Below, in pieces: positions 139 through 64,000 of a stretch of DNA of 64,000 nt. Below the pieces are notes generated by a model that had not been told where the DNA came from, did not search any database, and saw nothing but the letters and a program-made list of their open reading frames with translations. A program made the position numbers and the translations under genes. Source of the stretch: Desmodesmus armatus (Eukaryota > Chlorophyta > Chlorophyceae > Sphaeropleales > Scenedesmaceae); contig VIIQ02000595.1 in assembly GCA_007449985.2 (NCBI GenBank), forward strand, positions 62,001 to 126,000, read 5' to 3'. The number at the start of each line of letters is the position of its first letter. Positions within the stretch are counted from its first letter, which is position 1.

Positions 139-438
139 CTTCTGACCACCCATGCCATGACCCATGATGAGCACAGGAGGCTTTGCGCCTCCAATTCCTT
201 TCGGCATGTACAGCCATGCTTCGCAGGTGTCACCATTGCAAGGAAACTCCAAGGTGCTTCGGATGTAGCTGTCAGTTTCCATAGGCTGGGTGTTGTCTGT
301 TTGGAGGATGGTGCGCTCCAAGGGACCCACCCTCACTTCAGGCCCTTGCAACGAAGGTACCATTGCTAGACAGACTGCTACGATAGCTAGCAACGCCGCT
401 AGCTTCGGGCACGGAGACACACACAAAGGGCACCCCAT
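139..438 (-). CDS. Alpha/beta hydrolase, first exon (gene continues off left edge)
   Basis: The exon encodes 100 residues from an ATG at 438 and ends at a clean donor (AAG|GTGAGC) at 139. Residues about 8-30 are hydrophobic after a short basic/cysteine-containing start and look like a secretory signal peptide or anchor. Near the end the reading PPVLIMGHGMGGQK is the strand plus oxyanion-loop HG.GG signature of alpha/beta hydrolases of the dienelactone hydrolase / S33-like type. The nucleophile elbow and the Asp/His would lie in exons left of the window, so substrate and catalytic status cannot be judged. The gene is divergent from the dehydrogenase at 898. The reading beyond 139 is intronic and rich in CAG. 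The fold is fairly sure; the exact family is not. Confidence 0.62.
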
Positions 439-897
439 GGCCAGCTACTGTTGTGAGGGAGAAAACGGAGCTGCTGCGCTTGAACGTTTGCTGGGATGTC
501 GAAGCAGAAACACAAGACTTTTGTTTCAAATGAGCTTGCCAATGCTCGCTTTTCACGGCCTCAGCTTCGACCTTGGACAAACAGCTCCTCGACGTTGGAC
601 CCAACCTTGAAGGCACGAAAAGCGCAAGTGAGAGTAGGACACAACCGTTCATGCAGCTTGCAGGCGGTCCAGCAGGCAGTGTGCGTTCACCTGTCATAAC
701 ACCCTGGAGGTCTTTGCACCTCACAGTCTATCAGCATCATCAGCAAGAATGCCTGCCAAAATTGTTACTCTGGTGAGTGATTCATCAGTGGCAGATCCAC
801 GCACACACGTTTCAAGTATCTTTCGCGCCAACAAGCTGGGGCAACGCCTGGCCGCTGGCATGCTGCCTTTTGTGATGTATGAAATGAACCAGCTTCA
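439..897. promoter_or_regulatory. Divergent intergenic region between hydrolase and SDR
   Basis: About 460 bases separate the two divergent start codons, so a shared or bidirectional promoter is expected here. I see no convincing TATA box. A short ATG reading at 750-773 is followed by GTGAGT and could be a 5' leader exon of the plus-strand gene. Confidence 0.35.
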
Positions 898-3800: not shown

Positions 3801-5291
3801 CAGCAACCTGTGGGCTGTTGGCAACACCTGGCGCAGCTGGCAGGTACGCCGGTGGTGTATGTAACATACCTGGCGCTGCGATGGCTGTCCTGATTTATTG
3901 CTCTGAGACGCCAGGCCGGCAGACTGTGCGAACATCATATGATGCGTGTCTACCTGTGTGGTCTGAGCCTCAGTTAGCTTCACGCCCTATGCCGCAATCT
4001 GTCAGAGTCTGCGCAAAGTGGTCTGGCATGCTCAGACCTCCATTCATTGTTGCAATCAGTGCCCCAAAGAGGGCGCACCAATCAGCTTGCAGAGCGGTGC
4101 AGCACCAGCTTTCTCGAGGGTGCGTGGCTTTGCTGTTGATTGACCATTGCATGATGAATGCTTACTGCTGCTCGACACTGCTGTTTGCTTACCGTTCAGG
4201 CACTTGCTGATGTCTGGTCCTGCGCCAAGCATGCCACAGATCGCAAGTATGCTGGCTGAGGCGTACCCCACGGTGCGTGCCGGTTGTTGCAATAAGCACG
4301 GCAGCGTAAGCCTTGCTGATTGAAAACATGGGCTGAGCAAGCATGACCTTACCTGCACGTGCACTGGGTTCTCGCGGTGGCGTAGGATGTCTGCACCCGG
4401 CCAGACTATTCTAATGAGTCAAGCAGCATGTGCGGCACTGCAGCAAACCGTGTTCACAGCAGCAGGCAGTCGACGTAGTCATCACATGGCGTCGTGGGCG
4501 CCACCCATGATAAGTTATCTTGCACCCGTAGTGTTGTCACCCTTGTTGTGGGATCGTGCATTGCAGGTAAAGGTCCCTTTCCTGACGGCCCCCGGGCTAG
4601 CTGTCGCGCTGCTGGCCAAGTTCTGCACCCACCGGCTGGGCTTCGACATCCACAAGTTCTGGTGAGCGCAAGCTACCGCAGTGTCCAAGCTGCTGTCCGA
4701 TTGTGCCAAAAGATGCCACTGACGTTGCTGCGTGCATTTCCCCCCGCTCGTGTTAGCGCCTTGCCGTGCGTCCTGCGACCTTGCCGTTTGTCAAGCTGTC
4801 GTACGCTTCCTGCAATCACCTTGACGTTTGCGCTTCCTGCAACTACCTGAGTCATCATGTGCTGCTTACGATCTCGCAGGGCGATGCACAACAAACCTTA
4901 CAACGTGGACGCATCAAAGATAACACGCGTGCTTCCAGACTTCTCCTACATCCCGCTCAAAGACTCGGTGCGCGCAGCAGCAGACTCCGTGGTCGCCATG
5001 GGCCTCGCAAGCTTCTATTGGCCGAGCAGTATGTACTGCTTTGGTCTTCTGCGCAGCTTGGGTGCTGCACTGGGCTGGAGGGGCGCAGCGGCATCCGCTG
5101 CTTCTGTCGAAGCCGCGGAAACTGCGCAGCGCGCCGTTCAGGCCTCACGAGTTGCAGCAAGTACTCAGGAAGATCTCTCTGAATCTGGGGCCGTTGCTGT
5201 TATTGTGATGACTGGATCAGTGCCAGCGAAGCCAGTGCCAGCAAGCGCGGAGCTCATACTCAGCAATGGCGGCGCCAAAAAGGTTGTCTGA
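898..5291 (+). CDS. Extended short-chain dehydrogenase, DFR/cinnamoyl-CoA-reductase-like (10 exons)
   Basis: Exons: 898-1021, 1164-1267, 1534-1729, 1932-2036, 2364-2463, 2739-2852, 3745-3843, 4200-4272, 4567-4661, 4880-5291. All phases agree and give 473 aa (ATG at 916 would give 467). The Rossmann glycine motif TGATGYIG is at residues 35-42, a VHLAAVVN strand follows, the catalytic pair Y191/K195 reads YAYCK, and the C-terminal core has WELVTINPGIVFGP and PYNVDASKITRVL. This is the order of NAD(P)H-dependent dihydroflavonol/cinnamoyl-CoA reductase relatives (extended, epimerase-like SDRs). Such proteins reduce aldehyde or ketone groups on bulky substrates; the substrate here is unknown. The last exon adds about 100 Ala/Ser/Val-rich residues beyond the usual length. 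A degenerate copy of the start of exon 7 lies just upstream of it. No frame damage is seen. Confidence 0.86.
3655..3683 (+). repeat. Degenerate copy of SDR exon 7 start
   Basis: After a TTGCAG acceptor this stretch reads like the true exon 7 start at 3745 (PFTSN then a Met/Leu-Tyr), then diverges. It lies about 90 bases upstream in the same intron and orientation. Confidence 0.6.
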
Positions 5292-8200
5292 GAGCGACGC
5301 TCGACTTGTGATCGAGGAAAACTGCAGGCTGCGAGCCAGCACCCAGGATGCTAGCTGGCTGCCGCCATCAGCAGGCTGCCTCTAGAGACAAGCAGGCCGT
5401 ATGCTTGCAAGCCGCTTGTCGAGCGAGCCTGCACAGGCTGGTTGACGAGTCCAACTGTGTGGCGTCCGATTCCCTGTCGGCAATTGTCCCGGGCGACGTG
5501 CATGCCACAAGCCGCTGGATGCAGCAGCAGCCGGGGACACTCCCCTTGCTCAGGCTCCATATATGATTTGTGCAGCACACATGCGGCATGCTCATGTTAC
5601 TAGTGTTGGGTTGCATGGACAACCCATATATTGTTGCTACTGGCAGTACCCCTGCTTTCACATTATGAGTCCAATGTTGTGCAAGCCGCCTCTGCGCAGT
5701 ATGTTGTGAGCTGTGCTTGATTGACTTGATGGATTGCGTTGCAGCCGTCGCAGCTAGGAGCGCCATGCATGCACCGCTCACGCAAGCCTGCTGTCACACC
5801 GCAGTTTGGTTACAATGTCTGGTTGATGTCACTTGTGCACGCCATCACCACTTGCCTATTGTATGGTTTTGCACCATTTGCGGGTGTTGCAAACGCACCA
5901 TTTGCGGGTGGTGCAAACGCTCAAGAATGTTGGGTGCAAACAGCCTGATGTGTGTGGCATTGTTCTCTTGGTTTGAGAAGTTGACCGAAGGGTTGAGCCA
6001 ACACGCGGTTGCGGCCTTTCTGCCGGAGCTGTGTTGATGCCCGCGATAGTGCACACACCAGCTGAATTGAGTGGTGCGTGTTGTTGTCCCGGCACCACTG
6101 TCACCTGCCATGGGACCATTTTCCTGTTCAGAAGGTTGCTGTCTAAACTATGTTGGAGTTGAGGACCTATCTAGCGCTTGTAGTGCCGTTCTGGGAGGTG
6201 AGAAAGACTGTTTGTTGCCATCACCCGCCATGCTGCATCGCATATGATTGATGTCGTTCATTTGTTCAGAGTCGTGCGGTGTGTGTGTGTGTGTGCATGG
6301 GCGTTTTGGTCTCTACTCCAGCACATAGAGGCTATCAAGGGCGCTGTCCTGCAAAGGTGCGGAGACGCCTGACCGTCTGAACCTGTTTGCAAGGCTGTCA
6401 CCAGCTGCTTGTACTGCATGCACGCATACCTGTTGGGACAACACAGTCGCAGACTGTGGTCGTTGCTACTGTCCAGACCTGTACCTACCCTGCAAGCAGG
6501 CTTGTGGTCTTTGCAGTTGCTGTTGCAGGCTATACGTCCAGCACCAGATGTTAGCTGCTTTTGCTTCTGCCTCAAAGAGCACCGTAGGCGTAGGGTTCAT
6601 CGGCCGCTTGTGCGTTGTTTCAGTTAAGTACTCAGGTCTGGTCAGTGCACGCATGAGTGTGTGGCACTTTTCCTAAACCCTAAACCCTAAACCTCTGAGC
6701 TTTGTATTCAGTACAAAGGCTTTGCGGGAAGGCCTTGGGACAGCAAGCACATCACATGTTGCTTGATTATCTGTTACTGTTGAAGCCTACAAGGGGATTA
6801 GTGAGTGGCAATCCTGATAATCCTAAACTAGAAGCAGCCATAGGTCGTGTGTCGACTGCCCTCTGGTTTCCTTGCTCCCTAAGGGTCTGACCAGGTGACT
6901 GAAGGGACCTGCCATCCCAGTGTCGGGGTGGGTAGGTGGAGTCGGGCACCCCAGTTGTCTGCATTGCAGCGAGACTGTCCCTGTGTGTTGTGCGGTGATG
7001 TTTCCTGCTCGTTCAAGACACGCTGATCCTGTGAGACTGGTGAAAGAGCCTCAAAGGTTTCAAGCAATGTGTGCTGACATTGTATGTATCTAGCTCCAGC
7101 CTGTGCTGCTGCCTGGCTTCGCTGTTGACATCCTTTTGATACGCAGTGAACGCCAACGGTGCAGCTGTGCACTTGTGCATCGGGCGCAGCTGCAGTTACT
7201 GGCAGCCGTTTGCTTGCATGTTTGTTCCCTGGTTGCGGCGTGCGGTGTGGTAGAGGTTTAGACTGTCAAAGGTTAGGAGATTACCCTCTGGTTGACCAAC
7301 CCCATATTGTCAAGCTGTTGACCTTGCACTTTTGAGGTACCGCACCTGGCAATCCCCAGGTACTGCTAGTAATACCAGCCTGATTCAAGTGACTGGTTGT
7401 CCCTGATGCGCATCATGCGCAAGTACCCTGGTTCAGCCTGATGTCTGCCGAGCCTTTGGAGCGGCAAGAGGCTCAAAGAGTGGATGGTCACCAAGGTCAC
7501 CATTGCAACAACACCCCTGCTACAACGTAGTGTTGTTGTGTACCCGGGGTAACCCTGCTGTGTATGTTAGGTGTGTGTGCCAGTCAAGGCACATCAGGCA
7601 TTCGCGCCTGCATTGATTTTGCCGCTCTGGCTGTATGAAACTGTATGTTGTTGCTATGTATGGTGTGTGACTGCTCACATGGGCCTAAGCCACTTGAAGG
7701 TTAGTCATGAAATCAGGCGCCCTGGGTTGCCAACTTGAAGGCTTCACTGTTTCTGTTGCACACGTGTACCTGAACAATGGTAGGGAGCTTACACAACTCA
7801 ACGCCTCATGGGATCTGGGATGTGCTGCAGCTTTTGCATTGTCAATCTGAGGGTAGTTTCTCTGAGAAAAAGCTGATGGTCATGTTGATCCTGTCCAACG
7901 TACCAAATGGATACATACAGCCATAACCTGACTCAGGTGAAAGCTTCACTGCCAAGTCACAGATCAGAATGCCACACTACAATAGCAACAGACAACTGCA
8001 AATGCCATACAAGTACATTCTCAACCGCTTTCTGTTTGACATGGCTAAGTGACCCTGCAGCAGACACACATGCTGCTTCCAACCTACTGCAGTCCAACTC
8101 AGAAGGTGCTCAAAAGCTGCGACATTATGCTGCGCATTCCACCCTGTCAAGCACACCACAGTGAATGGATGCAGACTGCACCGCTGCAGACTGCTGCGCA

Positions 8201-8510: not shown

Positions 8511-31052
<22,542 letters not shown>

Positions 31053-36551: not shown

Positions 36552-38065
36552 ATGGCAGCAGCAGCAGTGGTGCACTGCTGCCGCCCGACGGCTCCCCAGC
36601 CGTCGCTGCCATTCTTACCGGTGACTTCAACGCCACCCCTCACAGCCCCCTGTATGCCTTTATGTCAGGGAGCTGCCTGGACCTGCAAACCATCAACAAA
36701 CGCCACGTGTCTCACCTAGCCGCCGGCAGCAGCAGCAGCAGTCACCACCACCATAAAGGGTACAGGGGGTATAGGAGGGCGCAGGTTAGCAGACGTCGGT
36801 CAGCAGAGTTCATACAGCAGCAACAGCAGGAGCAGCAGGACGCCATGGCAGCAGCAAAGCAGCAGCAGCAGGTACCCGAGCTGCAGACAGTTACAGTAAC
36901 CGCCACTGCTGCTACTGCTGCTGCTCAACAGAGCAATGTGTCGGGTGCTTCAAGCAGCAGCACCAGCTGGGCAGCCGCTGGTGCTGCTGCCGTCGAGATA
37001 CACCAGCAGTCACCCGGACCCATCAGCAGCAGCAGCAGCAGTACGCAGCACCGGCAGGACAGCAGCAGTGCGGATTTCGTCCCTGGCAGCAGCCCACCAT
37101 CCATACCAGCAGCAGCAGCAGCGTCACCAGTGCAGCGACAGGGCAGCTTGCAGCGGCACTTCCGTTGGAGTGAAAAAGAGGTTCGACGAGCAGCAGGCAT
37201 GTCTTACGACGAACTGGTCGAAGCAAGCATCTCACTGCTAAGTAGCTCAGGCACTGATGCAGATAGCCCTGCAGATACTACAGCGTCGACTGACGAACAG
37301 ACAAATAGCAACGGACGCGCGGCGGCTGCATTCGCAGCGACGGTGGCGGCTGGATCGGGCGCAGCCGCCGCAGGCGCGGCCGCCGCCGCCGCTGCTGCTG
37401 CTGCTGATCTTGCGGGTGGTGCTGTCGGCGGCAGCAGCAGCAGTTTCAAAGGGTGGTTTGGGGGGTTGTCGCGCAGTCAGTCTGGCGGTCAGCCGCTGCT
37501 GCTGCAGCATGGGCTCAAACTGCAGAGCAGCTACAAGAGTGTGCTCGGTAAGTCATCGCCACCCTATGGGGTCTGTTTGGGGGCAGGCAGGACTTTCGAA
37601 GCATGAGGATGCAGCAGGATAGGGTTTGCTTATATGCTTATCGCAGGAGGGCGTTGAAGGTCCTTGCCAAATATTTGGTTTGGGGGTTGTCGCGCAGTCA
37701 GTCTGGCGCGTCACAGCCACTGCTGCTGCAGCTTGGGCTCAAACTGCAGAGCAGCTACAAGAGTGTGCTCGGTAAGTCATGTACTTTCACCGAACGATAG
37801 GAGGGCTGGGTAGATGGGATGGGGTCCGTTGGGGAGTTGTTGGCAGGACTCTGGCAGGATGATGCAGGAGGGTAGGACAGGCTGTCACAGGAGGGGGGGG
37901 GGCATCAGGAGGGTGCACCAGGATAGGACAAGCTGACACGATGCTGTTGCTGTTGTATTAGCATGGTGACCATGTGCTGTCCTCCAGTGTCTGCCCTGCT
38001 GTCATGCTCTGCGTTTGCACAGATCAAGAGCCTGACTTCATCATCATTTTGCTCAGTGTGTCTGC

Positions 38066-41162: not shown

Positions 41163-44100
41163 ATGGCTTCCATGATGCTCCGCAGCTCCAACCTGGTATG
41201 TTGCATCGCTTGCCCAGAGTCTCCAAGATGCGGGTGACAGCTAGCTAATCGGCCCTGTGTGTCACCTGTGCAGGCCGCTAAGGCCGGATGCCGTCCCAGC
41301 GCTGCTGGCCGCAGCCGGGTTGTGCTTTGCCGTGCCGAAGACAACAAGTCCATTGTCAAGGTGGACCGCAGCAAGGACCAGCTGTACTTCACCAGCGACG
41401 CATCCCTGCAATACCTGGATGGCTCTCTGCCTGGGTAAGCCAGCCGGATGCAGCAGCAGCTCCAGGGCGAGCTAGAGACTTGCTCCAACAAGATCAGTTG
41501 GTCAGTTTGAGATACTGTCAGGATTTGCCACCAGCAGCGCAGGATCCGGGTAGAGGGAACTCCAGCTACGTTGTTCCGGGTCTCAAGTCATCTTGGCTGT
41601 GCTGTCCTGCTGTGCAGTGACTTCGGTTTTGACCCCCTGGGCCTGCTGGACCCAGTCAACAGTGGCGGCTTTGTCAACCCACAGTGGCTGCAGTACTCAG
41701 AGGTGTGTCAGCATGCAGGAGCTTAGCAGATTACGTCATCAGCAGCAGCTGCCAGCCAGTTGCTCAACACCGTGGCTGCGGCCAGCTTGAGCAGCACATG
41801 GTGGCCCGCGCGCTTTAGCACATGGTTCCGCGCAGGATCTGTGTCAGCACGATGCTGTAGATGTGTTGGTAGCATGTTGTGTGCAGACCCAGCACACAGC
41901 CATGCGTGCTGCAGGATGCAGCAGCAGCAGAGCATGTTCGCACTGCAGCGTTGGTGCCAACAGCACAGGAGGTGGACAGAGGCCCTTTAGCAGCGGGTGC
42001 CTGCGCATCATCATCTGCTGCGTGCGAAGCAGTCCAGCAGCAGGCCTTGCTCGAGGCTGTCATTGGGCATGTCTGCGTGCGTGGTGTATCACAAGCCTCT
42101 TGGGCTCGCCAACCCCGTCTGGCAGCTTTCTCGTGGCTCAGCTGTCCCAACTGCCAGCAGCTGCGCGCGTGGGCCCTCACACTCCTCACTCTCTCTGCAC
42201 CTTATCACATCTCACCGCCTTCTCAACATGCCCAGTGACTAACACACTGACTCCTCTCATCGGGTGTCTTATTTTCCCATGCGCAGGTGATCCACTGCCG
42301 CTGGGCCATGCTTGGTGCAGCTGGCATGTTCGCCCCTGAGGCACTGGCCGCATGGGGTGTGACCCCAAGTGTGACCGGCCTGCCCTGGTTCAAGACCGGC
42401 GTCATCCCCCCTGCTGGCACCGAGTACAACTACTGGGCCGACAACTACACCCTGTTCTACCTGGAGGCCATTGCAATGAACTTTGCTGAGCTCAAGAGGC
42501 TGCAGGACTACAAGTGAGTGAGATGTTTTAAGTGTGAGAGTGAGCTTATTGATCAAGCAAAAACGCCGATGGAAGTGTTGTATTCTACAGCAGGCTGAGA
42601 GGCAAGTATACCATAGCTTTGGACGCAAAGCCACAGCCATCAGCACACATGCAAGTGTTGCGACTGCTGCAGCTGGCACGGGGACTGCAGGAAAGCAGCA
42701 CGCCTGCAATAGCAGTCACCCCCATGTGCTGATGCGCTGCTGCACCCCATGCTGTGCTGATACTGGCACGCTCTTGACCTCCGGCCTAGCTCCTACGGCA
42801 AGCAGTGGCTCCCTGTGCAGACCCATGGTCCCGTCGCTGCCTGCTCCCGCAACCTCAACCACTGAGATCTGTTACCACTGTGATGTTGACCCTGATTTTC
42901 CCGCACTTCAGGTACCCCGGCTCCCAGGGCAAGCAGTACTTCCTGGGTCTGGAGGCAGTGCTGGGTGGCTCCGGCGACCCCGCATACCCAGGTGGGTGCT
43001 GGCACAGGGTGTGTGGTCGTGCTAGCTGCTGGGTTTTGAGGGTTGATTGTAAGACAGACAGAACAGCCGGTTGGCTGTCACCAGATCAGCAGCCTACCCA
43101 GGTGTAAAAACACTTGATGCCGGGGCTGGTCCTCAGGGTTCAAAAGAGGGGTTCAGCAGGGTTTTATGTTTTGGCAGGGGTGTGCACACTAACCAGGGAC
43201 AGCACACCAGGTCACTGGGGTGGGAGAAGGCAGGCGACGGGGCAAGGGGCGTGTTGCTTTCACCGCTGGGCGCTTACTCGACTTACTATCACTACCCGAC
43301 TTGTGTCAGTAAGTGAGCTAGGGACCCCTGGGCTGCCGGGTACCTGACCTGCTGCAGGGGTTGGAGCAGCAGAACTGACTGCTTGGCTACTGCATTGCGG
43401 GGGGCTGGCTCAGCTCGTAGCTGCCTGAGCATTGAGTGCCAATCAGACCGTACGACTGCTTTCGTGTTTGTGTCCGGACCATAGCTATGTGATCCTGGTC
43501 ATCTAACAGGCAGGCGGTTGTAGGGGTTGTCTGTCCTCACGTGCATGGACAACATGGCTGAGTGAATCAGGGGGTTGCATGGCATCTGCAGGCCGGAGAC
43601 AGATGCTGTACCGCACCTGCGCCTCCTCCCTCAACTGCTTGGACACGAGCCACAACATCAGGCGCCTCCTCCTGCGTCATGCTGTGCTGGCCCTCTCCCC
43701 ATGCTGTGCTGGCCCTCTCCCCATGCCGTGCTGACATGCTGTGCTGGCCCCTGCCCCCATGCTGTGCTGTGCTGACCCTCATGTGGCCCCTGGTTCCAAC
43801 CTGTTCCAACCTGGGCGGCAAGTCTGAGGCTGAAATAACACTGCTGCTGCGCCATGCTGAGCTGGCCCTCTCCCCGCGCTGTGCTGACTCTCTCCCTGTG
43901 CTGTGCTGACCCCCCCCCCCCTACACCCCCAGGTGGCCCCTGGTTCAACCTGTTCAACCTGGGCGGCAAGTCTGAGGCAGAGATGAAGAAGCTCAAGCTG
44001 AACGAGATCAAGAACGGCCGCCTCGCCATGCTGGCAGTCTTCGGCTACGGTGCACAGGTTGGTGTCTTGCATGATGGAGTCCGCCTTGCAGGGCGATTTC

Positions 44101-46995: not shown

Positions 46996-49900
46996 GCGTT
47001 GTGAGGTCCACATAGCTGACATAGTGGGCGGAGAGGCCGCCCAGCCACAGTTTGCCGTTGTGCTCGTGTGCTGATGAGATGCGAAAGGCTGAGGGCTCGA
47101 TGTTCTTGGCGGGATCGCCGGGGTCTTCGAGGAACTCCAGCACCTCCCCTTCGGGCGAAACCTGTTTCGAAAAGGTCGGAGAAAACCGCGAAGCCGTCGA
47201 TGATCGTCGGATTTTCAGGGTTAGGCGGGCTGGTTTCTCTGTTCCTCCTCCTTGCCCCTGTTTCCGAAGTCCGTTGTGCAGCTGTAAAGCATTATACTGG
47301 TGCAGTGTTGCAGTCAGCAAAAGCAGCATCAGGCCGTGTCCATCACACTGCTGCATGGCTGTAGAGTCACTGGATCATCATGAAATCATGTGCTGTGCTG
47401 ACAGCACCAGGCTGCTGCCCACTAATGGCCCTGCAGCAGCTCACCTTGACCACCCCTCCCCACTCAGTGACTGCTGGCCGGATGCGCTCAGACATCCAAG
47501 GCAGGATCGCCCGGATGATGGGCAGATGAAATGTCTGCAGCCAAAAGCAATCAGCAGGATGCAATGGACATCAGCGTGAGTGGCAAGGCTGTGCACGCAC
47601 ACGCATTCGTATTACACCTTAAGCTGCACCATTTTGGAAGCTGCCTGACAAGTGCGCGGGGGTACCTAGCCAGAGTGCGCGAATGAAGGCGCAACGGCGC
47701 AGTGCTACATAAGCGCACACCACCAACTAATCCACCAGCAGCGCCTGTCAGCAAGCGCGACGTCTCCTTGCTCACCCCCCCACCCCACCCTGTCCCCCAC
47801 CCTCACATATGTGCGCGCATGTCCCCCAACCTCACCCTCACAGCCGGCCCCCGCCCCTGCCCTTAACCCCACCCCCACCCCCTTTGTCCCCCCCCTCACC
47901 CCTCCGCCCCCGTCCCCCCCCCCCCCCCCCACCCCCACAAACACACACCTGCGTTGCTTTGGGAGGGGCTACCAGCAGTGCGACCCAGAAGTTGCCGTCA
48001 GGGGCACGTGCCACACCATCCGGGTGCCTGGCAGATGACTAATCATCACCTCCATGCTGCCAGCCTGACCACAGCATGACACAGCACAGCACGACACAGC
48101 ACAGCACGGATGTGAGCCGGCACAAAAAGGACATGCCACCCAGTATTGGCTTGAACTGACTCACTGTGTGGTGTCAGCATGCCTGCAGGTCATGTGCCCA
48201 TGCTACAGCATAGACGGCACAGCGAGACACCCCCCTCCCACCCCGTTTGCCCCACATATCAGATCATCAAATGTGGGGGTACCGCCCAGCGGTGAAAGTA
48301 TTCACTTGTAACAACCTGCCCCCCTCCCCTGCAGATGTCCCTCTGTGGCATGTTGCCAACAAACTCAGTAAGTCAGTGACGTACCGGCTGGCAAGTGGCC
48401 TCAGAGAGAAAGCAACAATCTTGTATCCTGCAACCACACCATCGTCATCTTATCACTGCCTACGTTGCTGTTACTGTGACTGTTACAACCGTTACATATT
48501 TCCAAACAAGCCCTGGGCGCCCGGTACTCCTACCTTTGGTCCTTTGAGCCAGTACTTGACTAATCGCAGCCTGTCGGTCTCGCTGATGACGAGGAATGAG
48601 TCATCAGCAGCAACTGCAATGCCATTGGAGTAGAAGAACCCGCTGGCCAGCAGGTGGGTCTCACGGGTGGTGGGGTTGTAGCGGTACACCTTGCCGCGAG
48701 GCAGGCCCTGCGGGGGGGGGGGGCGTGATAGTTCAGGGGTCTAGCCATGGCAGGGTTTAGGGAAGGAGCACCCTATAATGCAGCAGGTGGGTCTCACGGG
48801 TGCCGGGTTGTAGCGGTACACCTTGCCACGAGGCAGGCCCTGCAGGGGGTGGGGGTGGGGAGGGGGGGGGGAGGCGACAGTTTGGGGGTCCGTGGGGGGG
48901 GGGGCAGGGACAGGGGGCAATTCAGGCGTCAGGCCACAGGCACTGCATTGGCAATGGGCTGGGGCTGGGGCGGGGACAGGGGGCAGGGACAGGGGCAGGG
49001 ACGGGAGCGGGGCACACATTGCAAGAGGGTATTGTGCATGCAGCACTTTTGGGGGTCCGTTTGCAAAGGTAAGGGTCCGATAACACAGGGTCTGGCCACA
49101 GCCAGGGTAGGGGAGGAGCACATACTGCAAGAGGGGTCTCGTGGGTGGTGGTATTTTAGGTGTGCCTTGCCACACTAGTGTGGCCAGGCCGGCACTGCAG
49201 GGTGTGCAGAGAGCAGGGTGTGTGCAGAGACAGCTACTCCCTCTCTGCCTCCCCCTTTCACCAGTCCCTCCCTCAATCCCCCCCCCCTCACCTGGCACAT
49301 GCCCAGCCCCCAGCCCTTGACTGTGTCCCAGTAGCCTGCCCGCCCATCAATGGATGGAACCCACTTGATGCGGCTGTCAATGGGGGCATTCCTGTGCACA
49401 CGGCACAGCACAGCACAGCACACAGCACAGTTGTGAAAAATGTGGACCATGCCTGCTGAAGCAATGTCCAGGTCAGTGCCCCCGCCTTTATTACACCCAC
49501 CCACGCCCCCAAGCACACACAACCTGTTGTTTGCCCGCCCCATCTCCCCCCCCCCCCACACACACACAGAGAGTGGCTGGCCAGCCAATCTGTGTCTCAG
49601 GAGGTGCATCCATAAATGCACTTCCTGTGTCTACACAGGACACAGGTAGATGGTCGCACCTGTGTACTTGATGTCGACCGAACATGTGAAGTATACCATG
49701 CAGTCTGCAGCAATGTCCAAGTCACCCCCCCCCCCTTCTGCCCACCCACGCCCCCAAGCACACACTGCGTGATAATTGCCCGCCCCTCTCCTCCCCCCCA
49801 CCAAAACACACAGGACGCACGTACTAGTACACGGTCTCCCCCCCCCCGACCACATACAGGACACACCTGTGCAGAATGATGTCGACCGATGATGTGAAGA

Positions 49901-50757
49901 CCATCCCATGAGCAGCAATGTCCAGGTCGTTGGCGTATATGATGGGCTGGTGTGCCCCAGCCCCCCCAAACACACGTCTGTGCCCCCCCCCCCCCCCCCC
50001 GCCCCCAAGGACACACTGCGTAATGTTTGCCCCCTCCCTCCCTCTCCCCTACTGCCCCGCCCCCCAAACCTTTTTTGGGGGGGGGGGGGCACACGTACTA
50101 CCATGATGGCCGCACCTGTGCAGAATGATGTCCACTGATGATGTGAAGTAAACCATGCCGTCAGAAGCAATGTCCAGGTCGTTGGCGTATATGATGGGCT
50201 GGTCGGGCTCCAGGGGGGAGGACCCACTCACACGGCTGGCCACAAACTCAACTTGGGTGCTGCCCTTGCGCAACAGCAGCAGACCCTGCAGGAAGCAAAG
50301 GAGGGGGGAGGGGGTGGGAAGCAACTGTGTGTGTAAGGCAGAGAGGATACAAGTGTAGCTAGCATGTGTGTGTGTGTGGGGGGGGGTGTCAATGTGTTGC
50401 AGTCCATGTGTCGGCGTTCTCGCCAACCACACCTCCCCCCTCCCCTCCACCCCCCCCCCCCCAGCAACACTCCTCTCCCCAGCCCTTCCCCCCTCACCCC
50501 CCCCCCCAAACCCCCCTTCCCCACCCACCTTCAGTGCATCACACACATACAGGTCCCCCTGTGCATTGAAGGCTGCACCCAGTGGCCTACCAGGTCCCAG
50601 GTAGGCAGTGGGCCTAGGGTTTAGCAGTGAAAATGTGCCGTCAGGGTTCTCTGCTGCCTCAAAAACCCCGCCAAATTTGTCCAACATGGTGGCCACGCCA
50701 TCAGGGGACACGATCACAGACTCTGCAGCAGCGGCAGCAGCAGCAGCAGCAGCAACA

Positions 50758-52559: not shown

Positions 52560-52632
<73 letters not shown>

Positions 52633-55207: not shown

Positions 55208-55259
<52 letters not shown>

Positions 55260-57515
55260 GCTTCAGCAGCGCAGGCAGTGCAACACTGCCGGCTGCAAGC
55301 GTCACTGCGAGCGGGCTGTCATAAGCCTGCGCAACGGCAAATCAGAACAACGGTGTATATCCACAAGTAGCAGTTTTTGTTGTCCAGTGCAGTCACCATT
55401 GCAGAGGGAGTGGGCAGACATGCAGAGCACTACGGGGGGGGGGGGGTAGGGGGGGTACCACATGTCAGCAACGGCCCAGTCTTGCAATAAGCCTTCGTAG
55501 CATGGGTTCAAGACGAATGTGGTCGCCCATCAATCGTTTTGTGAGAGCTGTTGGCACCAATGAGCCGCGACCTGTGGACTAGCAGTAGTCCCACCATGCA
55601 TTGCTTCTGTAGCCCTCCAGGTCAGGCATGGTGGGCTACAGGAGCAGTGCACAGTGGGACTACTGCAAGCCGACAGGTTGTGGCGGCTACGCGGGTTGAA
55701 GCTGTGCTGTGGTGTGAGTCACGTGGTTGTGAGTCACGTGGTCATGTGGTTGTGAGTCACGTGGTCATGTGGTTGCGAGTCACGTGGTCATGTGGTTGCG
55801 AGTCACGTGGTCATGTGGTTGTGAGTCACGTGGTCATGTGGTTGTGAGTCACGTGGTCATGTGGTTGTGAGTCACGTGGTCATGTGGTTGTGAGTCACGT
55901 GGTCATGTGGTTGTGAGTCACGTGGTCATGTGGTTGTGAGTCACGTGGTCATGTGGTTGTGACTGTACTGCACCAACAACAAGGAATCACACAACACCAC
56001 ACAACCTGCACATGCTGTACCCTATCGCACCCCACCCACCCCACCCACCTGCCTGCCCCATGAGGCTGCAGGCCTGCCGGGCAAACTATTGAGCCGCGTC
56101 ACCCCCTGCGTCCCTGCCAGTCCCCTGTACAAGCTTCTCTCTCTGTCTCTGTCCCATAAAGCTGCAGGCCTGCCGTGTAAGTCGTGCGCCACACCCTCCC
56201 CTGGCACTTATGCCAGGCCTACTGCAAGAGCTTGCAACACAATCTCAGCGGAAGGGGGGGGGGCAGTTGTCTTGGGCTTCGGAAGGGTCACGTGGGCGGG
56301 GTGGGAATAGGGAGGGAGGCGAGGGGCAGTGGGGGGGGGGAGAAGGGGGGGTGAGGGGAACGGGAAAGGCGCAGGATGGGAGGGATGTCATCCACACGCA
56401 CCTGTCCCATAGGCTGCAAGCCTGTCGTGCAAACTCGTGTGCCACCTCGTCCCAGCGGCTGCCACACAGCAGGTCAGCGTAGGGCGTGTCATCCGGTGCG
56501 CGGTCAACAAACAGCAGGCAGCCCATCAGCCGCTGGATCTCACACATGTGACGAGCCTGCGGTCAAGGAATGAGAGTGAGAAAGAGTGAGGAGGTGGGGA
56601 GGGCGCACGCACACTGGGTGAGAACTGGTTTGAAACTCATGCTCTTCACTACCTTCAAACAAACAGCAGGCAGCCCATCAGCCGCTGTATCTCACCCATG
56701 TGACGAGCCTGCAAGGGAGCAGGATAAGGGGGAACACACACACACACACACACAGGGTTATACCTCTGTGCCCTTTGCTGACTTCTTGATGCACATCTTT
56801 CCAGCCACCATCCACAACACAGCGCGATTTGAGCTCTGCTGGCAGAGCAGACATGACATATGCAGCACGTTGCCGAGCAAGCCATTATGCACGCATACAC
56901 GTATCCGCTGTCACACCTCAGCCAAGCTGCCGCCCACGAATTTGGGTCATTTGTTCAAGCAGCAAACGGGAGTACACCTTTGTAGGGACGGCAGTACGCG
57001 TAAAAGGAACAGTGAAGATAACAATGGCGGAAGAAGTTGAGAAGTCGTCAAGAGCCACACACATGTAACTCATGTGTTTAACACACTCACCCTGAATGGT
57101 CCAAAGTGCTGCTGTGCGTAGCGAAGAGCCGCTGCCTGTCCGCTGCTGCTGAGTGTGTTTAGGAAGTTGAGCTCGTGCAGCCTGAACTCAAAGCCACCTG
57201 GTGCACCGTCATGCGACAACTGGCTGCGGTGCTGCTGCGCCCAATCCAGGCGGGACCTAGGTTGTGGGCCTTGATCTGGGGGGCAGGGGGGGGGGGAGGG
57301 GGTGGGGGGGGGAGGGGGGGGGGGGGGTGCACACAGCAATTGTGAAAACAGGTCAACGGACAAAGTTGCTGCTGCTGAGTTTGTTTAGGAAATTCAGCTC
57401 ATGCAGCCTGATCTAAAAAAAAAAACCGGGGCACCGTCGTGTGACAGCTGGCTGCGATGCTGCTGCGCCCACGCGGGACCAAGGTTGTGGGCCTTGATCT
57501 GCGGGGCAACGTGTT

Positions 57516-57546
<31 letters not shown>

Positions 57547-59283
57547 CACAGCAATTGGAAAACAGGTGTAACGGACAAAGTTGCTGCCAAAGCGAAGATG
57601 TGAGACAAGAAGCAGACGGACGAGCAACATGAGATAGGACATTAGGGCCCAGGGTGAAAAATGTCCACACCTCCTTGCTCCAGTACTGAGTGCAGTGCGG
57701 TGTATGGTGCCTTGAAGTGTGCTGCATCCGCCACCCCCGCTTCACACACACACTGCCTGCCCCCAGTCTCACCCCTAGGACGTGTCTTGCTTTGATCCAA
57801 ACCGTACCGCCGTGCTGAGGGTTTGAAAGTGCCATTCCTTGCTCTGCCCTTCTTGCCCCACCTGCCTTACTGTTCCCCCTCCCTCCCTCCCCCCCAGGCC
57901 CCAGGAAACCATACAGCACCCCCGCCCCGCCCCCCAAAAGCCCACCTGCTCCAGCACTGAGTGCAGTGCTGTGTATGGTGCCTTGAGGTGTGCTGCATCC
58001 GCCACCCCCGCTTCAAACACAAACTGGTCTGCCAGGTCAAAGCGGCCCTCACGGTACAGGTGCTCAGCAATAACCTGCGAGGCAGGCAGCAGCACACAGC
58101 AGTGTGTTGACACATGCAAGTCCTAGCTTATGCAGGTGTGGGAGGCAGGCAGGCAGGCAGGCGGGCAAACGGGACGGATGGGCGGTAGGTTTGCAAGTTG
58201 GCGGCAGCACACACTAGTCACAGTGTGTGCGATTGTGTTGCAGCCAGGATTGCATTGTGTATGCTAGGTGTACATAAAGGAAGCCTGCATGGTTCCGGTT
58301 TGTGTGCATGGTACGCGTTTGTGTGCATGGATACGTTTTGTGAGCATGATTCGGTTTTGTGTGCTGCAGTGCGTCCTTTGTGGCCGCTGCATGCGATGGT
58401 GTGCTGACCAAACGGTTATCACTGCTGGTTGGTCTGCTGCTCACCTTGTTGAGTGCTTGCTGGTCAAACTGTGTATTCTTCAGAGCCTTGCAGTGTGCCA
58501 GACCTCAACAGCGCTGCTAGCATGGAGTTTGAAGTCCAAATTCAAACCCATTTGAACGCACACACCTTGGCGGGACTGCTCACCTTATTTAGTGCTTGCT
58601 GGTCAAACTGGGTGTCCTTTAGGGCCTTGCAAATGTCTGTGGACGTGTCAAAAGCCTTGTCAAGGGCCTGCAGTCATGTCAGCACAAGCAACACCAGCAC
58701 CACACATGTCACACATGTCGATGCAAGTGTGACAAGCTTCACTTTTGTCAGCCTGCCAGCCGACGGGACCACCCAGCACGTCAGAGTCAGCATAGCAGCG
58801 GTGATGGGCCCCGCCACTGATTATCAACAGTGGCCACCCATCCTAACCGACACACAATGTCATCATCACAAGCGGCCCCCGACCCTTCGCCCCCCCCCCC
58901 CCCCTCCAAAACACCACCACCACCAGCATAGGGCAATCCTTTGTGTATGCAACACGCACTTCGTCATGTTGCACCACACGTATTGAAGGTATGACACACT
59001 GGCTGCTAGTCATGAGCAGCTACAAGCTTGTCTCACACACCTTGCTGAGCTTGTTGATGCTGCTGTGCAACTCCTTCGTGCTGCTGTTCATCTCCTTCTG
59101 AAGCCCCTGCTTCTCCGCCTGCGTCCTCAACTGCTGCAAAACATCGCACGTGGACCCCGCGAGTAGCTGCTGTCGCGACTGCTGTGCGAGCTGCATCAGC
59201 TGGTCCAGGCAGTCTGACACCTTGCTGGAGCACAGCTTCTGCTTCTTGATGACTTTGCCTGCCTCATCAAGTGCTGCATCCAT
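54337..59283 (-). CDS. RMD5: RMD5/RMND5-type E3 ubiquitin ligase subunit of the GID/CTLH complex (7 exons)
   Basis: Exons in coding order: 59283-59041, 58667-58584, 58074-57946, 57275-57091, 56556-56402, 55000-54799, 54493-54337. If one C/G is restored in exons 4, 5 and 7 all phases agree and the protein is 385 aa, the usual RMD5 length. A helical N-terminus (LDEAGKVIKKQKL...) is followed by LisH (VIAEHLYREGRFDLADQFVFEAG), CTLH/CRA (NLGPAL.WAQQHRSQL, FEFRLHELNFL, EIQRLMGCLLFV, PYADLL) and the degenerate RING ACPVSRDQST..NPPKLLPCNHVLC..KCPYCPMEA. In yeast and animals RMD5/RMND5 pairs with a MAEA/GID9 partner to ubiquitinate substrates. Copies of exons 2, 3, 4, 5 and 6 edges lie in the introns. 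Confidence 0.88.
54600..54670 (-). repeat. Copy of RMD5 exon 6 3' end
   Basis: Reads EFVYDSIVA, then a shifted version of SR.QST and GGGTG, paralleling EFVYHSIFACPVSRDQST at 54799-54860. Confidence 0.7.
55085..55160 (-). repeat. Copy of RMD5 exon 6 start (second copy)
   Basis: QAYDSLLAVTLAGGSVALPA with a CAG acceptor, 140 bases upstream of exon 6 (QAYDSPLAVTLAAGSVVLPA). Confidence 0.8.
55255..55335 (-). repeat. Copy of RMD5 exon 6 start (first copy)
   Basis: QAYDSPLAVTLAAGSVALPA LLKLA after GCGCAG, followed by a CAG run. It is more similar to the true exon than the middle copy. Confidence 0.8.
55715..55965. repeat. 23-bp minisatellite carrying eleven CACGTG palindromes
   Basis: About ten and a half near-identical 23-base units, each GAGTCACGTGGTC plus ATGTGGTTGT, in RMD5 intron 5. 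CACGTG is the G-box/E-box core. Readings through it on the plus strand are not genes. Confidence 0.92.
56060..56215 (-). repeat. Two decayed copies of RMD5 exon 5 3' end
   Basis: About 56152-56200 (GVAHDL..RPAALWDR) and 56070-56095 (FARQACSLMGQ in part) repeat EVAHEFARQACSLWDR. The second preserves GGGGCAG where the true exon has GGGACAG. Confidence 0.7.
56646..56715 (-). repeat. Copy of RMD5 exon 5 start
   Basis: ARHMGEIQRLMGCLLFV after TGCAG, then a TGA; parallels ARHMCEIQRLMGCLLFVDR at 56556. Confidence 0.8.
57362..57505 (-). repeat. Copy of RMD5 exon 4, internally deleted
   Basis: Reads IKAHNLGPAWAQQHRSQLSH, then a poly-T run, then sequence like the FRLHELNFLN part. It lacks the LD residues present in shifted form in the true exon. 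Confidence 0.75.
57660..57755 (-). repeat. Copy of RMD5 exon 3 3' end
   Basis: EAGVADAAHFKAPYTAL with a deletion near SVLEQ, paralleling EAGVADAAHLKAPYTALHS at 57946. Confidence 0.75.
58440..58500 (-). repeat. Copy of RMD5 exon 2 3' end
   Basis: CKAL.NTQFDQQALNK plus GTGAGC donor, with one mismatch base, 145 bases downstream of exon 2. Confidence 0.78.
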
Positions 59284-59882: not shown

Positions 59883-60294
59883 TACTGTGGCACAGCTCTT
59901 GCAAACACCGGTGCCTGAGCTGATCGACAAGCAAACACACAGCCACAAACTGACAGAGCCACAGAGGGCAGCTATGCCAGCAGCGAAACAGCACAGGGGC
60001 CAAATTATACAAAGCCATCAATACAATTTGGGGTTTGACCTGGCCCGGGTCCAGTGGCAGTTGCTCTCAACCTGAAAGGGAGACCCACACATGTCATGAC
60101 ACAAAAGCCAAGCCTGGCCTTGGCTTTGGCCCCCAACAAAGGTGAAGTGTCAACATTTTGGACGAGGGCCAGGCAAGATGTGAACCCTACAATTGTGTAC
60201 ACACACAATGCATGCATGGCGCGGCAGTAGCAGATCGAGGTGCCATCACACCCCAGTAGCACTAGCGGCTTGACACAGTGATGTGTCTGACATT

Positions 60295-60365
60295 ATGCCT
60301 TCTGGAACACCCCAGGCACCAGCTCTGTGAGCCATTCAGGCTGTATAGCCATGACCCCCGTCAAA
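60295..60365 (-). repeat. Third surplus copy of helicase terminal exon end
   Basis: TGVMAIQPEWLTELVPGVFQKA then TAA. Full reading frame of the exon end is kept. Confidence 0.8.
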
Positions 60366-60534
60366 TCACACCACCACAACCCACGACGACGAAGGGCGGC
60401 ATGTCAAGCAGATGTTGCCTAGTACAGTTACATGCACCATGCATACACATGCCCGCAAGATGATGTACATGCCCGCAAGATGATGTAGCACCACAAAACC
60501 ACACACACACCACAGCACTATGGTCTGTGACACG

Positions 60535-60612
60535 CTACGCCCTCTGGAACACCCCAGGTGCCAGCTCTGTGAGCCAATCTGGCTGTATGGCCGTGACCCC
60601 CGTCATCTCGTA
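60535..60612 (-). repeat. Second surplus copy of helicase terminal exon end
   Basis: YEMTGVTAIQPDWLTELAP GVFQRA then TAG, identical in the core to the true exon. Confidence 0.8.
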
Positions 60613-60789
60613 CCACCAGGCGCCACTGTGGTGACCACAACCCACTGAAGAACGGCAACATGTCACAGCAGATGTGGTCCAGCACATGTGCATCCTCCGT
60701 GCATATATGGCATCACCACAGGAAAGGTGATATCACCACCACATGTGGCAGCACAGCACAACGGTCTGTGGCGCAGTGTTGTGTCTCAC

Positions 60790-60875
60790 GCTACGCCCTC
60801 TGGAACACCCCTGGTGCCAGCTCTGTGAGCCATTCTGGCTGTATGGCCGTGACCCCCGTCATCTCGTACCAGCCT
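60790..60875 (-). repeat. First surplus copy of helicase terminal exon end
   Basis: YEMTGVTAIQPEWLTELAP GVFQRA then TAG, 60 bases past the true stop. Confidence 0.8.
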
Positions 60876-60932
60876 CTTTGGAGCGGACACCTACTCACTG
60901 CCTGAACCCTGGCACCCTATCACACTGCTGCC

Positions 60933-63900
60933 TTACCCCCTCTGAAACACCCCTGGAGCCAGCTCCGTGAGCCAATCTGGCTGTATGGCAGTGACCCCCG
61001 TCATTTCGTACCAGCCCTCCTCACTCTGCTGGCAGCCCAGGAACAGCAGCAGCTGCGGCTGCGTGCGGAACAGCACAGACGAGGGGTGCACACGCAGCTT
61101 CAGCGGCCGACCTGCAGCAGCAGCAGCAGCAGCAGCAGCAGCACACAGGCTTGTGTCATAAGAATCTAGTGTAGTTACAACCCGTCACAGGGGGCTGACC
61201 TATCTATATTTGCAGCTCCTGCCACAGGAACACCCAAGCTTGCTGCAAAGCTGGGCAACATTAAAAGGAGCCAAAAGCAGTTGTAAGCACAAGACCATGC
61301 ATCAATAACAATGGCTCAGTGATCGAACTGCTGGACTTACGTGGCTGCACATGCCTCAGCAGGCGGTACACGTTGCTGCCAGCATCGTTGGCCCTAGTGG
61401 GGTCGTACTGCGTGTGGTCAAACTGCGCCGCATTCATGAACAGACCACATGTGACGGCCTTGCACACCTGCACGGGCGGTATCGCAACACACAAACACAC
61501 AGCGGTATGGTGATCGAAGGGCAAGAAGGTGTTTCTCCTGTGTGCCGACTTCCAGTGGTGATGATGATCCCACACCCCTTCCTCCCATATATACCCTCCT
61601 CTGCCACCTTCAAGCTGTGTGGCAAAGTGTCCAGCAAGAGCTAGCAACAACAGGCACCCCCCCCCCCTTTTCGGCCCCCATCCTCCACTCTCGCCCCTCC
61701 TCTCACCCTCCACCCCCACCCCCTCATCCCCACTTCCTCGTCCCCCTCGACTCTGCTGTAAAGTCCGCAGCCCCCAGGCGCTTCAGCTTGCAGCAAAGCT
61801 GCGGAAGAAAAACCCTTCCCCCCACCACCCGTGATGATGTTACGTCTGAGAAGGGTAGGAGAACACCCCCTCTCTTCCCTTGCCACCCCAAGGCAGGTTG
61901 CAATGACGGTGTCTCTCACCAGGTCAACATCCCCCTCAGCGCTGCTGTCGGTCCGCAGCCCCAGGCGCTTCAGCTTGCGACACAGATACTGAGACACCCC
62001 CGCCCTTCCACCCAAATCCTGTAGATGTGATGTCTGCCAGAAGGGGAGAGTGAGAAGGGGAAGAGATTACCCCCCCCCCTTCTGTACTTTTTTTGTCCTC
62101 TGTACTTCTCTTCCTGCAACTAACTCTCACCAGGCCCACGTCCCCCTCAGCGCTGCTGTCGGTGCGTAGCCCCAGGCGTTTCAGCTTGCGGTGCAGCTGC
62201 TGTGACACCTCTGCCGCACGCAGCATGCCGTGCTGGTGGACCCCATTGCGAGCAGACCTGCAGCAGCAGGTGTGCACACAGCCATGAGCACACAAACCTG
62301 CTGATTTGAGGGTGTCCTGGTGAGGAATACACAATTTCACGCCCCCCCCCCCACATACACACACCCCCTCACGCCCCCCCCCCCCCCCACACACACACAT
62401 GTGCACGCATGCAGTCTCTCTGTCGACACACACACATACACACACACTTCCCAGTGTCTACACATACAAACAGCATCAGCCCGATCAAATCCCCGTTCAG
62501 CAGTAGCGACCTTGGCCTGGGCAGCACCACACCATCTTTGCCCACAATTGCACTTGAAACACACAAGCTGAGGGTCTAGGTACGATCCCAAAACATAACT
62601 CCAGTACTATTTGTAGATGTAGTACGCCGGTGACTTCTGAACCCTACACATACCCACTCACCATCTGTGTGACTTGCCGTGCTCCAGCCACGCTCTGTGC
62701 ACATTGAGGAATGTGACCAGGTCCCCCCCCCTCCCGCCGCAGCAGCAAACTCAGCCTTGGCAGCATTCCAAGAAAACCTCATCGCTCACATGTCTGACTG
62801 ATTACACACCAAGATGAGGGTCCAGAGGCAAGCGCCAACCCCACACCAAACTACATTTAACCCCAAAAAACCTTCAACGTACGGCCCTACACATACCCAC
62901 TCACATCTGTGTGACTTGCCGTGCTCCAGCCATGCTCTGTGCACATTGAGGAATGTGACCAGGTCACCCTCAGCAGCAGCAAACTTGCCTTGGCAGCATC
63001 CAAGCCTTCTTGCCACCCACAACACCTGTCACGCAATTTGAAACATACTTGTCACAGCACATGTGTGAGAGAGTGACAGCATTCTGGCTACAGAGTCAAT
63101 GCAACAGTCAGCTAGATTTGTAATGCTGCATCACTAAATGTGCCTCTTTGTCAGCAAGCAGTAAGTACTTGGTGATGCAATAGCCAGCTGACTTGGAATG
63201 CCCAAGAGGCTTCTCACTCACCAGCCACACACTGGGTACTGACAGCACGTCTTCTTCTTCGTGGAGCATGCCTAGAAGCAAGCATGTTGCTAAGTGACTA
63301 AATGCAGTAACCAGCTGCAATGGACTTGTACTGCCCAAAACCTTTCATTTCTTCTCAAGTAGCAGGCATTCAACTCACCAGCAGCGGCCCACACACTGGG
63401 CACCGACAGCATGCCAGCTATCGTTAGCAGCTCCTGGCAGCAGCCAAAGCGGGTGCAGGCTGACAACAGTGCAGCACCTAGCTGAGGCTCTAGCGGGAGA
63501 GCTCTGCTAGAGGGAGGCCCACAGACTTGGTCAACCTGCAGCAGCAGCAGCAGCAGCAGCAACAGGGGCGGCAGCAGCAGCAGCGACGGCGGCAGCAGCA
63601 GTTGTTGTTGCAGCAACGGCAGGCAGCCGCGGGGGAAATGCAGGCAGCGGTTGTGCATACACGGGTGTATCCCCAATGGCATATCGACAAGTCGGCCCAC
63701 CGTGCATCGCTGTCGAGTGCCCCCAGTGCATGCAGCAGCTCAAGCCCCCTTCCACCTGAGTTGACTGGTAGTGGAGTGACAGCACCCTTGACACCCAACC
63801 CTATATGCCCCTGGTAAAACCAAAAAAAAAATGCCCTAGTGCCAATGTTAGTGCTCGACATGTCGGCCCACCTTCCATCGCTGCCGAGTGCCCCTCCCCC

Positions 63901-64000
63901 CGAGCTGCGTGCAGCAGCCGGCAAATCAACAGTACCAACATCAGTACCGGCCTCCATCAACAGTACCAACAACAGAAGGGGAGGTCTTGCGGGGTTGATG
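60933..64000 (-). CDS. DEAH-box RNA helicase, C-terminal part (5' end beyond right edge)
   Basis: Exons seen in coding order: about 63765-63698, 63535-63379, about 63010-62905, 62257-62131, 61467-61341, 61111-60933 (stop TAA). Family landmarks: LLHALGALDSDAR, LTKSVGLPLAEL..PLEPQLGAALL, CCQELLTIAGMLSVPSVW, GDLVTFLNVHRAWLEHGKSH, a shortened W-C-type motif, SQQLHRKLKRLGL, VCKAVTCGLFMNAAQF and the OB-fold end LRVHPSSVLFR...GVTAIQPDWLTELAPG. This is the winged-helix/ratchet/OB tail of DEAH helicases (DHX8/DHX33/DHX35/PRP22 group). The ATPase core lies outside the window, so splicing versus ribosomal role cannot be told. Frame breaks occur near 63495, 62987 and 62257, each curable by one extra C/G. 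Partial copies flank almost every exon. Confidence 0.85.
61760..62000 (-). repeat. Two copies of helicase exon 62257-62131 3' end
   Basis: LCRKLKRLGLRTDSSAEGDV DL with a GTGAGA donor at 61919-62000, and a shifted version of the same at 61750-61795. Confidence 0.75.
62480..62770 (-). repeat. Copies of helicase exon 63010-62905
   Basis: 62668-62765 repeats NAAKAEFAAA and, after a nine-base G run that breaks frame, VTFLNVHRAWLEHGKSH. A fainter trace (AAQAKVATAERGFD) is at 62480-62525. Confidence 0.75.
63140..63275 (-). repeat. Copy of helicase exon 63535-63379 3' end plus intron start
   Basis: VLSVPSVW and the GTGAGT donor, followed by intron sequence (GCCTCTTGGGCATTCCAAGT) resembling that after the true donor (63290-63360). 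Confidence 0.75.
63850..63950 (-). repeat. Copy of helicase exon around 63720
   Basis: CTGCTGCACGCA..CT.GG, then GGCACTCGGCAGCGATGGAA GGTGGGCCGAC, parallels the LLHALGALDSDAR exon end and donor, with a GGGGGGAGGG insertion. Confidence 0.65.

Follow-up and report, generated by a model that had tools for sequence, protein, structure and literature searches.

Duplication beside or within a gene has several described forms. Internal gene and exon duplication has reportedly been treated by Gao and Lynch in 2009 and by Letunic in 2002. Patch-mediated repair in rice is a further source of same-strand local duplication at breaks. We examined a 64 kb stretch of green-algal DNA (hereafter the window) carrying many short same-strand copies of nearby sequence, a number of which take in the edge of an exon and lie in the adjoining intron. 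The sections of Pace et al. 2009 (PMC2671141) dealing with capture of proximal DNA by synthesis-dependent strand annealing (SDSA) give a median of 147 bp for proximal copies, with 824 of 1,136 donors lying within 5 kb; such copies occur in introns and include exons and splice sites, and two whole-exon copies tested there were without coding constraint. According to the same sections the duplications were recognised as insertions into interrupted transposons, exons were rare (a handful of the 824 donors), and one example was inverted, at a rate that those sections do not state. In the part of the potato RdRp account used here, a duplication across an intron-exon border gave a new intron (PMC4974935), and in the corresponding part of PMC8355091 the fill-in of staggered breaks yields small contiguous tandem duplications.

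The window is part of contig C566 (436.6 kb) in a genome of 115.8 Mb and 831 contigs, and its GC content per 2 kb runs from 52 to 61%. It was pooled with 16 further loci (223.8 kb in all, 5 kb of that N) and compared with itself by blastn with dust on; matches of low entropy were removed, a filter that biases the counts. Near matches were those at offsets of 30–600 nt, arrays being taken several times in the match counts. The window gave 70 direct and 2 inverted near matches, and the pooled sample 156 and 6; a near direct match was present in 12 of the 16 sampled loci and absent from 4, with densities of 0–19 per 10 kb across loci and 10.9 in the window. The median match was 96.5 nt and the offsets peaked at 150–270 nt (156 matches, offsets 30–600 only); the window held 70 near matches versus 21 at offsets of 600–5000 nt. 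Two reduced sets were used: 76 non-overlapping pairs at offsets of 60–600 nt with a spacer of at least 40 nt, 35 of them in the window (direct, identity 71–96%), and 87 clusters formed by pairs without the spacer requirement. The copies are real. An assembly or sequencing artefact would yield near-identical copies, whereas these pairs differ by 2–30% and recur in the other loci; a possible single-base frameshift near 48023 hints at small errors, and we consider artefact a scarcely credible source of the copies. An earlier note on the window had proposed such a self-comparison and had described copies of 20–120 nt placed 60–400 bases away, figures with which these measurements agree.

Exon edges are over-represented within the pairs. 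Edges were predicted with an exon finder combining a splice and a codon model, trained on conserved exons, and random expectation was obtained by placing the same pairs at random. A predicted edge fell inside 55 of the 76 pooled pairs versus 31.9 ± 4.3 expected (41 versus 22.3 ± 3.8 at a stricter finder setting). Divided by identity, edge-containing pairs numbered 28 of 34 at ≥88% (null 12.8 ± 2.6), 18 of 24 at 80–88% (null 11.0) and 9 of 18 below 80% (null 8.4). Classing the pairs by coding score (33 of 76 coding-like versus 16% expected) missed weakly biased genes, and the exon finder was used instead. No clear splice-site peak emerged when the ends of unannotated pairs were scanned for motifs.

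The placement of the copies follows a strict rule, given in the earlier note as a general tendency: copies of exon starts lie upstream of the exon and copies of exon ends downstream. Among 39 copies on annotated exons, 37 reached the edge on the expected side, 2 were interior (on the downstream side), and none was on the wrong side. The window exons of six genes (the earlier note had counted seven of eight genes) contributed 18 copies, 17 at the expected edge and 1 interior downstream. For the genes called ESYT, DHX35, RMND5 and CCR4 below, the longest or homologous copy was treated as the true exon, a choice that favours the rule, and six additional window exons and two CCR4-like edges entered the test for having copies. 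A less circular set (PEPCK, a strictosidine-synthase-like gene, Lhca3 and the family cores described next) placed 24 of 25 copies at the expected edge, one of the 24 being a PEPCK copy of an entire exon, for which the choice of direction is arbitrary; 16 exons of the three named genes carried 14 copies, of which 12 matched a single edge on the expected side, 1 was that whole exon and 1 was interior. Prevalence rests solely on 80 exon cores found by family searches (CCT, Rpb2, LHC, tubulin); PEPCK (sampled locus L021) was picked up because of its pairs and was left out. These cores gave 12 copies on 8 exons, and as a control the flanks of other genes gave 5 matches in a fourfold number of searches; no copy was found for the 12 tubulin cores or the 16 cores of the LHC set. 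Border copies in graded stages of decay recur beyond the window as well, which supports the repeated local duplication read from it in the earlier note; the note's claim that almost every gene is affected is too strong genome-wide.

These features are best explained by recurrent local same-strand recopying, which leaves a copy of ~40–130 nt about 90–300 nt from its source, usually with unrelated spacer between. That the recopying is coupled to repair, with selection that keeps the exon intact as its filter, we hold at about even odds. Repair would begin at breaks or stalled forks within intron DNA of low complexity; the nascent strand would re-anneal on the sister in a shifted register and recopy a nearby patch, in a synthesis-dependent, slippage-like or staggered-break-like manner; and contiguous tandem duplication would be one outcome of such repair. 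Purifying selection would remove events that break an exon, so that start-edge copies would survive upstream only and end-edge copies downstream only. Introns would grow and acquire extra, still good-looking splice sites, with no new introns. Low-complexity tracts made up 8.3% of spacers versus 3.5% overall, and preceded the second copy directly in 27 of 76 pairs versus 12.3 ± 3.4; the other three pair ends were not enriched (12, 17 and 11). The slippage around such tracts proposed earlier gains some support from the spacers and from one pair end of four, and none from the remaining three. The window also has, at 55718–55962, 10.7 copies of a 23-nt unit (98%).

Several results weigh against this explanation. 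In the window alone a predicted edge lay inside 20 of 35 pairs versus 14.9 ± 2.8 (15 versus 9.4 ± 2.7 at the stricter setting), and the genes that trained the finder are highly expressed; either the sampled loci carry most of the edge excess, or weakly biased genes of the window escape the finder. The direct copies described earlier stand as real pairs with a pooled edge excess that is weak in the window itself, and the analysis does not confirm that all of the more than 35 copies counted earlier are exon edges, those 20 of the 35 spaced pairs having a predicted edge. The edge excess was greatest in the most similar class, beyond the twofold persistence expected from resistance to change on the exon side alone. 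The context of copied splice sites is a further difficulty. Acceptor copies with a non-homologous flank (n = 8, AG being lost in two) had a pyrimidine fraction of 0.70, compared with 0.48 at location-matched CAG sites and 0.69 at true acceptors, and donor copies with a non-homologous flank matched at 2.0 of 3 positions versus 0.73 for controls (n = 4, P 0.003), true donors matching at 1.91; these 8 acceptor and 4 donor values (4 of 7 donors) were hand-picked. Such splice-like flanks, in small hand-picked samples, are not predicted by random recopying; they would be predicted by flanks that were copied and then scrambled, by selection on both sites, or by a copying process linked to splice sites. 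These flanks and the edge excess among the most similar pairs are the basis for supposing that the exon border is the preferred unit, a process tied to splice sites or boundaries recopying or rehomogenising the exon edge and its splice signal into the intron. We regard this as possible and rather doubtful. Were it true, introns would hold reserve borders, splice-competent after turnover of their flanks, and genome duplication would be coupled to splicing landmarks, driving intron growth border by border.

Two further results against recopying concern flanks and introns. Same-offset flank similarity was found in 18 of the 76 pairs (3.8 expected), pointing to a tandem origin for some, and among tubulin paralogues (L031, L032 and L033, clustered on C602, exons 94–99% identical) intron 3 was largely unalignable (53–73%, hundreds of gap columns, and of very different length), so some introns do turn over fast. 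Both favour contiguous tandem duplication of 100–300 nt across the border, in which the intron parts drift away and the exon part stays alignable through one-sided constraint; the spacers between the strictosidine-synthase-like copies also look alike by eye. Contiguous cases exist: locus L023 has three young contiguous units with a period of ~124 nt (90–99%), L014 has one at 5640–5990 (97%), and an array at 26082–27839 of the window still aligns at 67–71% over 0.5–1.7 kb. However, of the 33 clusters at ≥88% identity 4 were contiguous, 3 nearly so and 26 had a match/offset ratio below 0.6. Flank similarity was rarest at the highest identity (4 of 34 pairs at ≥88%), its rank correlation with identity being -0.15 raw (p 0.19) and -0.27 after homopolymer compression (p 0.02). 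In a further flank test 75 of the 76 pairs were usable, with z>3 in 40 of 75 versus 23 of 75 controls; flank similarity was not recovered by compressing homopolymers, 6 of 76 pairs lying above the 95% null. Among the paralogues, tubulin introns 1 and 2 can be aligned over their full length (78–97%), and since these introns and the 26–28 kb array remain alignable, ordinary decay seems too slow to have removed the flanks of copies that are 90–97% identical. Plain tandem duplication with decay does not suffice, and we think it an unlikely account of the whole. Because the most similar pairs are spaced and flank similarity does not rise with identity, the duplications are partly contiguous and mostly either spaced from the start or refreshed in their exon part only. 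The word tandem in the earlier note is accordingly inexact: the spacer is usually not duplicated, though some contiguous units and ordinary arrays exist. Within the tandem units of L023, in the intron after exon core 4780–4900, there is a TTAGGG-like interstitial repeat.

Refreshing of the exon part would be the work of gene conversion if the duplications were old and tandem, the exon-derived part being kept bright by the true exon while the intron parts diverged. Similarity limited to exons is known in this genome: the exons of LHCB-like paralogues L037 and L038 (C219, ~7.3 kb apart) are identical at 318 of 320, 225 of 225 and 92 of 92 bases (635 of 637), whereas intron 1 aligned at 79% over 263 columns with 108 gap columns, hardly better than shuffled sequence (73%, 114 gap columns), and intron 2 weakly at 80% with 65 gap columns (shuffled 70%, 88 gap columns). 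The uncoupling of identity from flank similarity and the concentration of the exon-edge excess at high identity also favour conversion. Against it, differences were not significantly clustered along the pairs (over 64 pairs Fisher p was 0.11, and over the 35 at ≥84% it was 0.06), and at least one pair without coding signal is equally sharp (L009 1886/2085, 96%). We give conversion a minor chance, and repair-coupled recopying remains our preferred account. An origin of the spacers elsewhere in the genome received no support, no spacer family being found for window 14000–28500, 20000–21000 or L011 (not all candidates scored). The same searches bear on introner-type elements, in which one element would recur across many introns; besides the absence of a spacer family in these stretches they gave two dispersed repeats, described below.

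The fate of the copies was judged from 20 pooled exon-copy alignments. Differences fell at codon positions 1, 2 and 3 in 17, 14 and 40 cases, and 5 of 7 indels shifted the frame. The third-position share of 0.56 compares with ~0.46 reckoned for a neutral copy, free to change anywhere, paired with a constrained exon in which silent third positions alone change; it leans slightly towards constraint, yet is far from that of a coding exon. To judge from these alignments the copies are mostly neutral non-coding debris. End copies retained the GT in 21 of 22 cases and start copies the AG in 12 of 15; this preservation, and a context matching true sites even where it was not copied, could mark the copies as working alternative borders or exons under selection, as could three PEPCK copies that differ from their exon at third positions only (3, 3 and 2 changes). 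However, the pooled intact rate (33 of 37, 0.89) fits the 0.86 predicted by neutral decay, 31 of the 71 differences lie at codon positions 1 and 2, most indels are frameshifting, and the PEPCK exons join gap-free on the known enzyme, so that the PEPCK copies are not in that protein. We consider working borders quite improbable. A role as silenced splice sites was ruled out by the same neutral rate of intact GT and AG, and one as recursive splice points was rejected on several copied exon ends that are without a terminal AG.

The copies lie within existing, longer introns: 12 introns with a copy had a median length of 642 versus 374 for the 53 compared (p = 0.009), though long introns offer more room for finding copies. 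The earlier note had seen in them a possible route to intron birth, by duplication of an exon segment containing AG|GT. Border-carrying duplications are indeed frequent in this genome, yet none of 58 annotated introns matched at both sides (exon end with intron end, and intron start with next exon start), and the two sides, taken singly, rose above the 95% level set by mismatched introns in 4 and 0 of the 58. In this test and in that of intron length, neighbouring cores could span an unseen exon. We therefore hold birth of these introns by duplication to be most improbable; in this sample border duplications lengthen introns and leave no trace of new ones.

Four window genes are anchored by homology, namely Lhca3, the strictosidine-synthase-like gene, RMND5 (RMND5A match) and DHX35 (weak, E 0.0013); two others are probably an SMP/C2 ESYT-like gene and a CCR4-like gene. 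An SMP match was found in one of 123 window open reading frames, which may or may not be that of the ESYT-like exon. On the minus strand, the strictosidine-synthase-like exon GLLLLRK...VDIILH, with its donor at the 3' end (50116–50285; tblastn with a homologue, frames and exon finder), is followed in the downstream intron by a copy of its 3' edge with donor GTGTGT (49864–49960; 3-nt and 1-nt gaps), a second with donor GTGCGA (49649–49723) and a third, partial one, short of the edge and below the threshold of the edge test (49446–49474). The exon GLPRGKVYRYN...KGPK of the same gene (48534–48707, minus; homology and exon finder) has an upstream copy of its 5' edge with acceptor CTGCAG and one 1-nt gap (48781–48855). 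Near 48023 this gene has a likely single-base frameshift in a C run, between HLPGT and PDGVARAPDGNFW, which may be an assembly error or real. On the plus strand, the Lhca3 exon (43933–44057; homology and exon finder) has an upstream copy of its start with two single-base insertions and the AG lost (43783–43836).

All three RMND5 exons are on the minus strand and rest on the exon finder with RMND5 homology (the RMND5A match for the first). VIAEHLYREG...HSVLEQ (57946–58074) has a downstream copy of its 3' edge, 94% over the match, with GT lost (57676–57755); the exon ending QQALNK (58584–58667) has a downstream copy of its 3' edge with donor GTGAGC (58437–58492); and the exon beginning ARHMCEIQRLMG (56446–56556) has an upstream copy of its 5' edge at 96% with acceptor TTGCAG (56658–56712). 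The DHX35 exon beginning AAEVSQQLHRKLKRLGLR (62131–62232, minus; exon finder, weak homology), taken as true for being the longest copy, is followed downstream by a copy of its 3' edge with donor GTGAGA (61913–62004) and by a second, more decayed, interior match (61741–61858). Also on the minus strand, the ESYT/SMP-like exon ending PQMMADAAKQYGAGYLTALELMEFDLGQ (21489–21667; exon finder), again the longest copy and so taken as true, has five downstream copies of its 3' edge within 20523–21415 (at about 21308–21415, 21091–21196, 20944–21015, 20802–20907 and 20523–20598). A further ESYT-like exon, IPPRLDGVKVYDEV...GSNIK (19969–20064, minus; exon finder, taken as true), has copies on both sides, one of the 3' edge with donor downstream (19695–19771) and one of the 5' edge with acceptor upstream (20202–20265). 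The presumed CCR4-like gene is on the plus strand; its exon start YSGIYLQRDGGRRDGCATFWR (35060–35119, taken as true, first 60 nt used) has an upstream copy of the 5' edge with acceptor, 231 nt off (34801–34885), and an exon 3' end followed by GTAAGTCAT (37448–37547, taken as true, with its last 100 nt used and an open frame of 744 aa around it) has a downstream copy of the exon end with donor at 94%, with gaps of 1–2 nt (37676–37780). The remaining spaced direct pairs of the window's 35, not all assigned to exons, are spread over 139–64000. By contrast, the array at 26082–27839 is an ordinary contiguous one of 8 units of ~240 nt, aligning over the whole unit at moderate identity.

The genome searches made for the spacers gave two dispersed repeats. 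One of ~70 nt (window 21838–21908) recurs on both strands, in at least 38 further places at 86–100% identity (39 of 183 candidates scored), and had no Rfam or tRNA match; the other, of ~920 nt (L011 7603–8522), occurs in at least 23 near-full places at 79–97% identity (39 of 695 candidates scored) and would serve as a neutral ruler for the local duplications. Rfam at gathering scores found nothing in the window. A tRNA-Leu(CAG) predicted at 13455–13539, by long CAG and GCAGCC repeats, is absent from the Rfam matches and may be false. One protein was placed against other algae: its best match was a EukProt transcript (70%), and among named sources Chromochloris zofingiensis, Scenedesmus and Tetradesmus gave 46–50% and Edaphochlamys and Chlamydomonas 40–41%. 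The first three we take to be Sphaeropleales; judged by this one protein the host alga looks nearer Sphaeropleales than Volvocales, which makes the Volvocales a doubtful comparison group, though the earlier note had chosen them.

Intron lengthening and duplication touching splice sites are usually inferred from single cases. With one genome holding many graded copies under a strict direction rule, it becomes possible to count how often border duplications arise, how old they are and what becomes of them, how far duplicate splice sites are used, and whether new introns are seeded as claimed; the lack of a birth signature in 58 introns amid many border duplications is informative. Among the papers listed in literature searches, judged by title and abstract opening and with subscription journals mostly outside the search, the pattern was not announced for any green alga. 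As far as the sections used here go, SDSA capture (PMC2671141) is the nearest described process, being alike in its short local copies, its occurrence in introns and its exon and splice-site content; the close donor and length of ~150 bp agree with the offset peak and median match found here. Alternative or mutually exclusive exons born of duplication would retain a coding constraint, which the pooled alignments did not show, though single copies could differ. Unlike SDSA capture as described there, the copies here are nearly all on the same strand, mostly less than 300 nt from their source and enriched at exon borders; the occurrence of either orientation is perhaps not a defining trait. The part of the potato RdRp account drawn on (PMC4974935) likewise has a duplication that spans an intron-exon border and carries splice signals, whereas the copies here stay in an existing intron with the both-end signature in 0 of 58. 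Staggered-break fill-in, within the part of PMC8355091 drawn on, is alike in its same-strand local duplications, made there at breaks, and differs in being contiguous, unrelated sequence lying between the members of most highly similar pairs here. The duplications found here also share with patch-mediated repair in rice their local and same-strand character.

Internal gene and exon duplication, finally, is said to place duplicated exon sequence beside its source, as is seen here, but the copies in this alga are mostly partial, anchored at the exon edge and non-coding.

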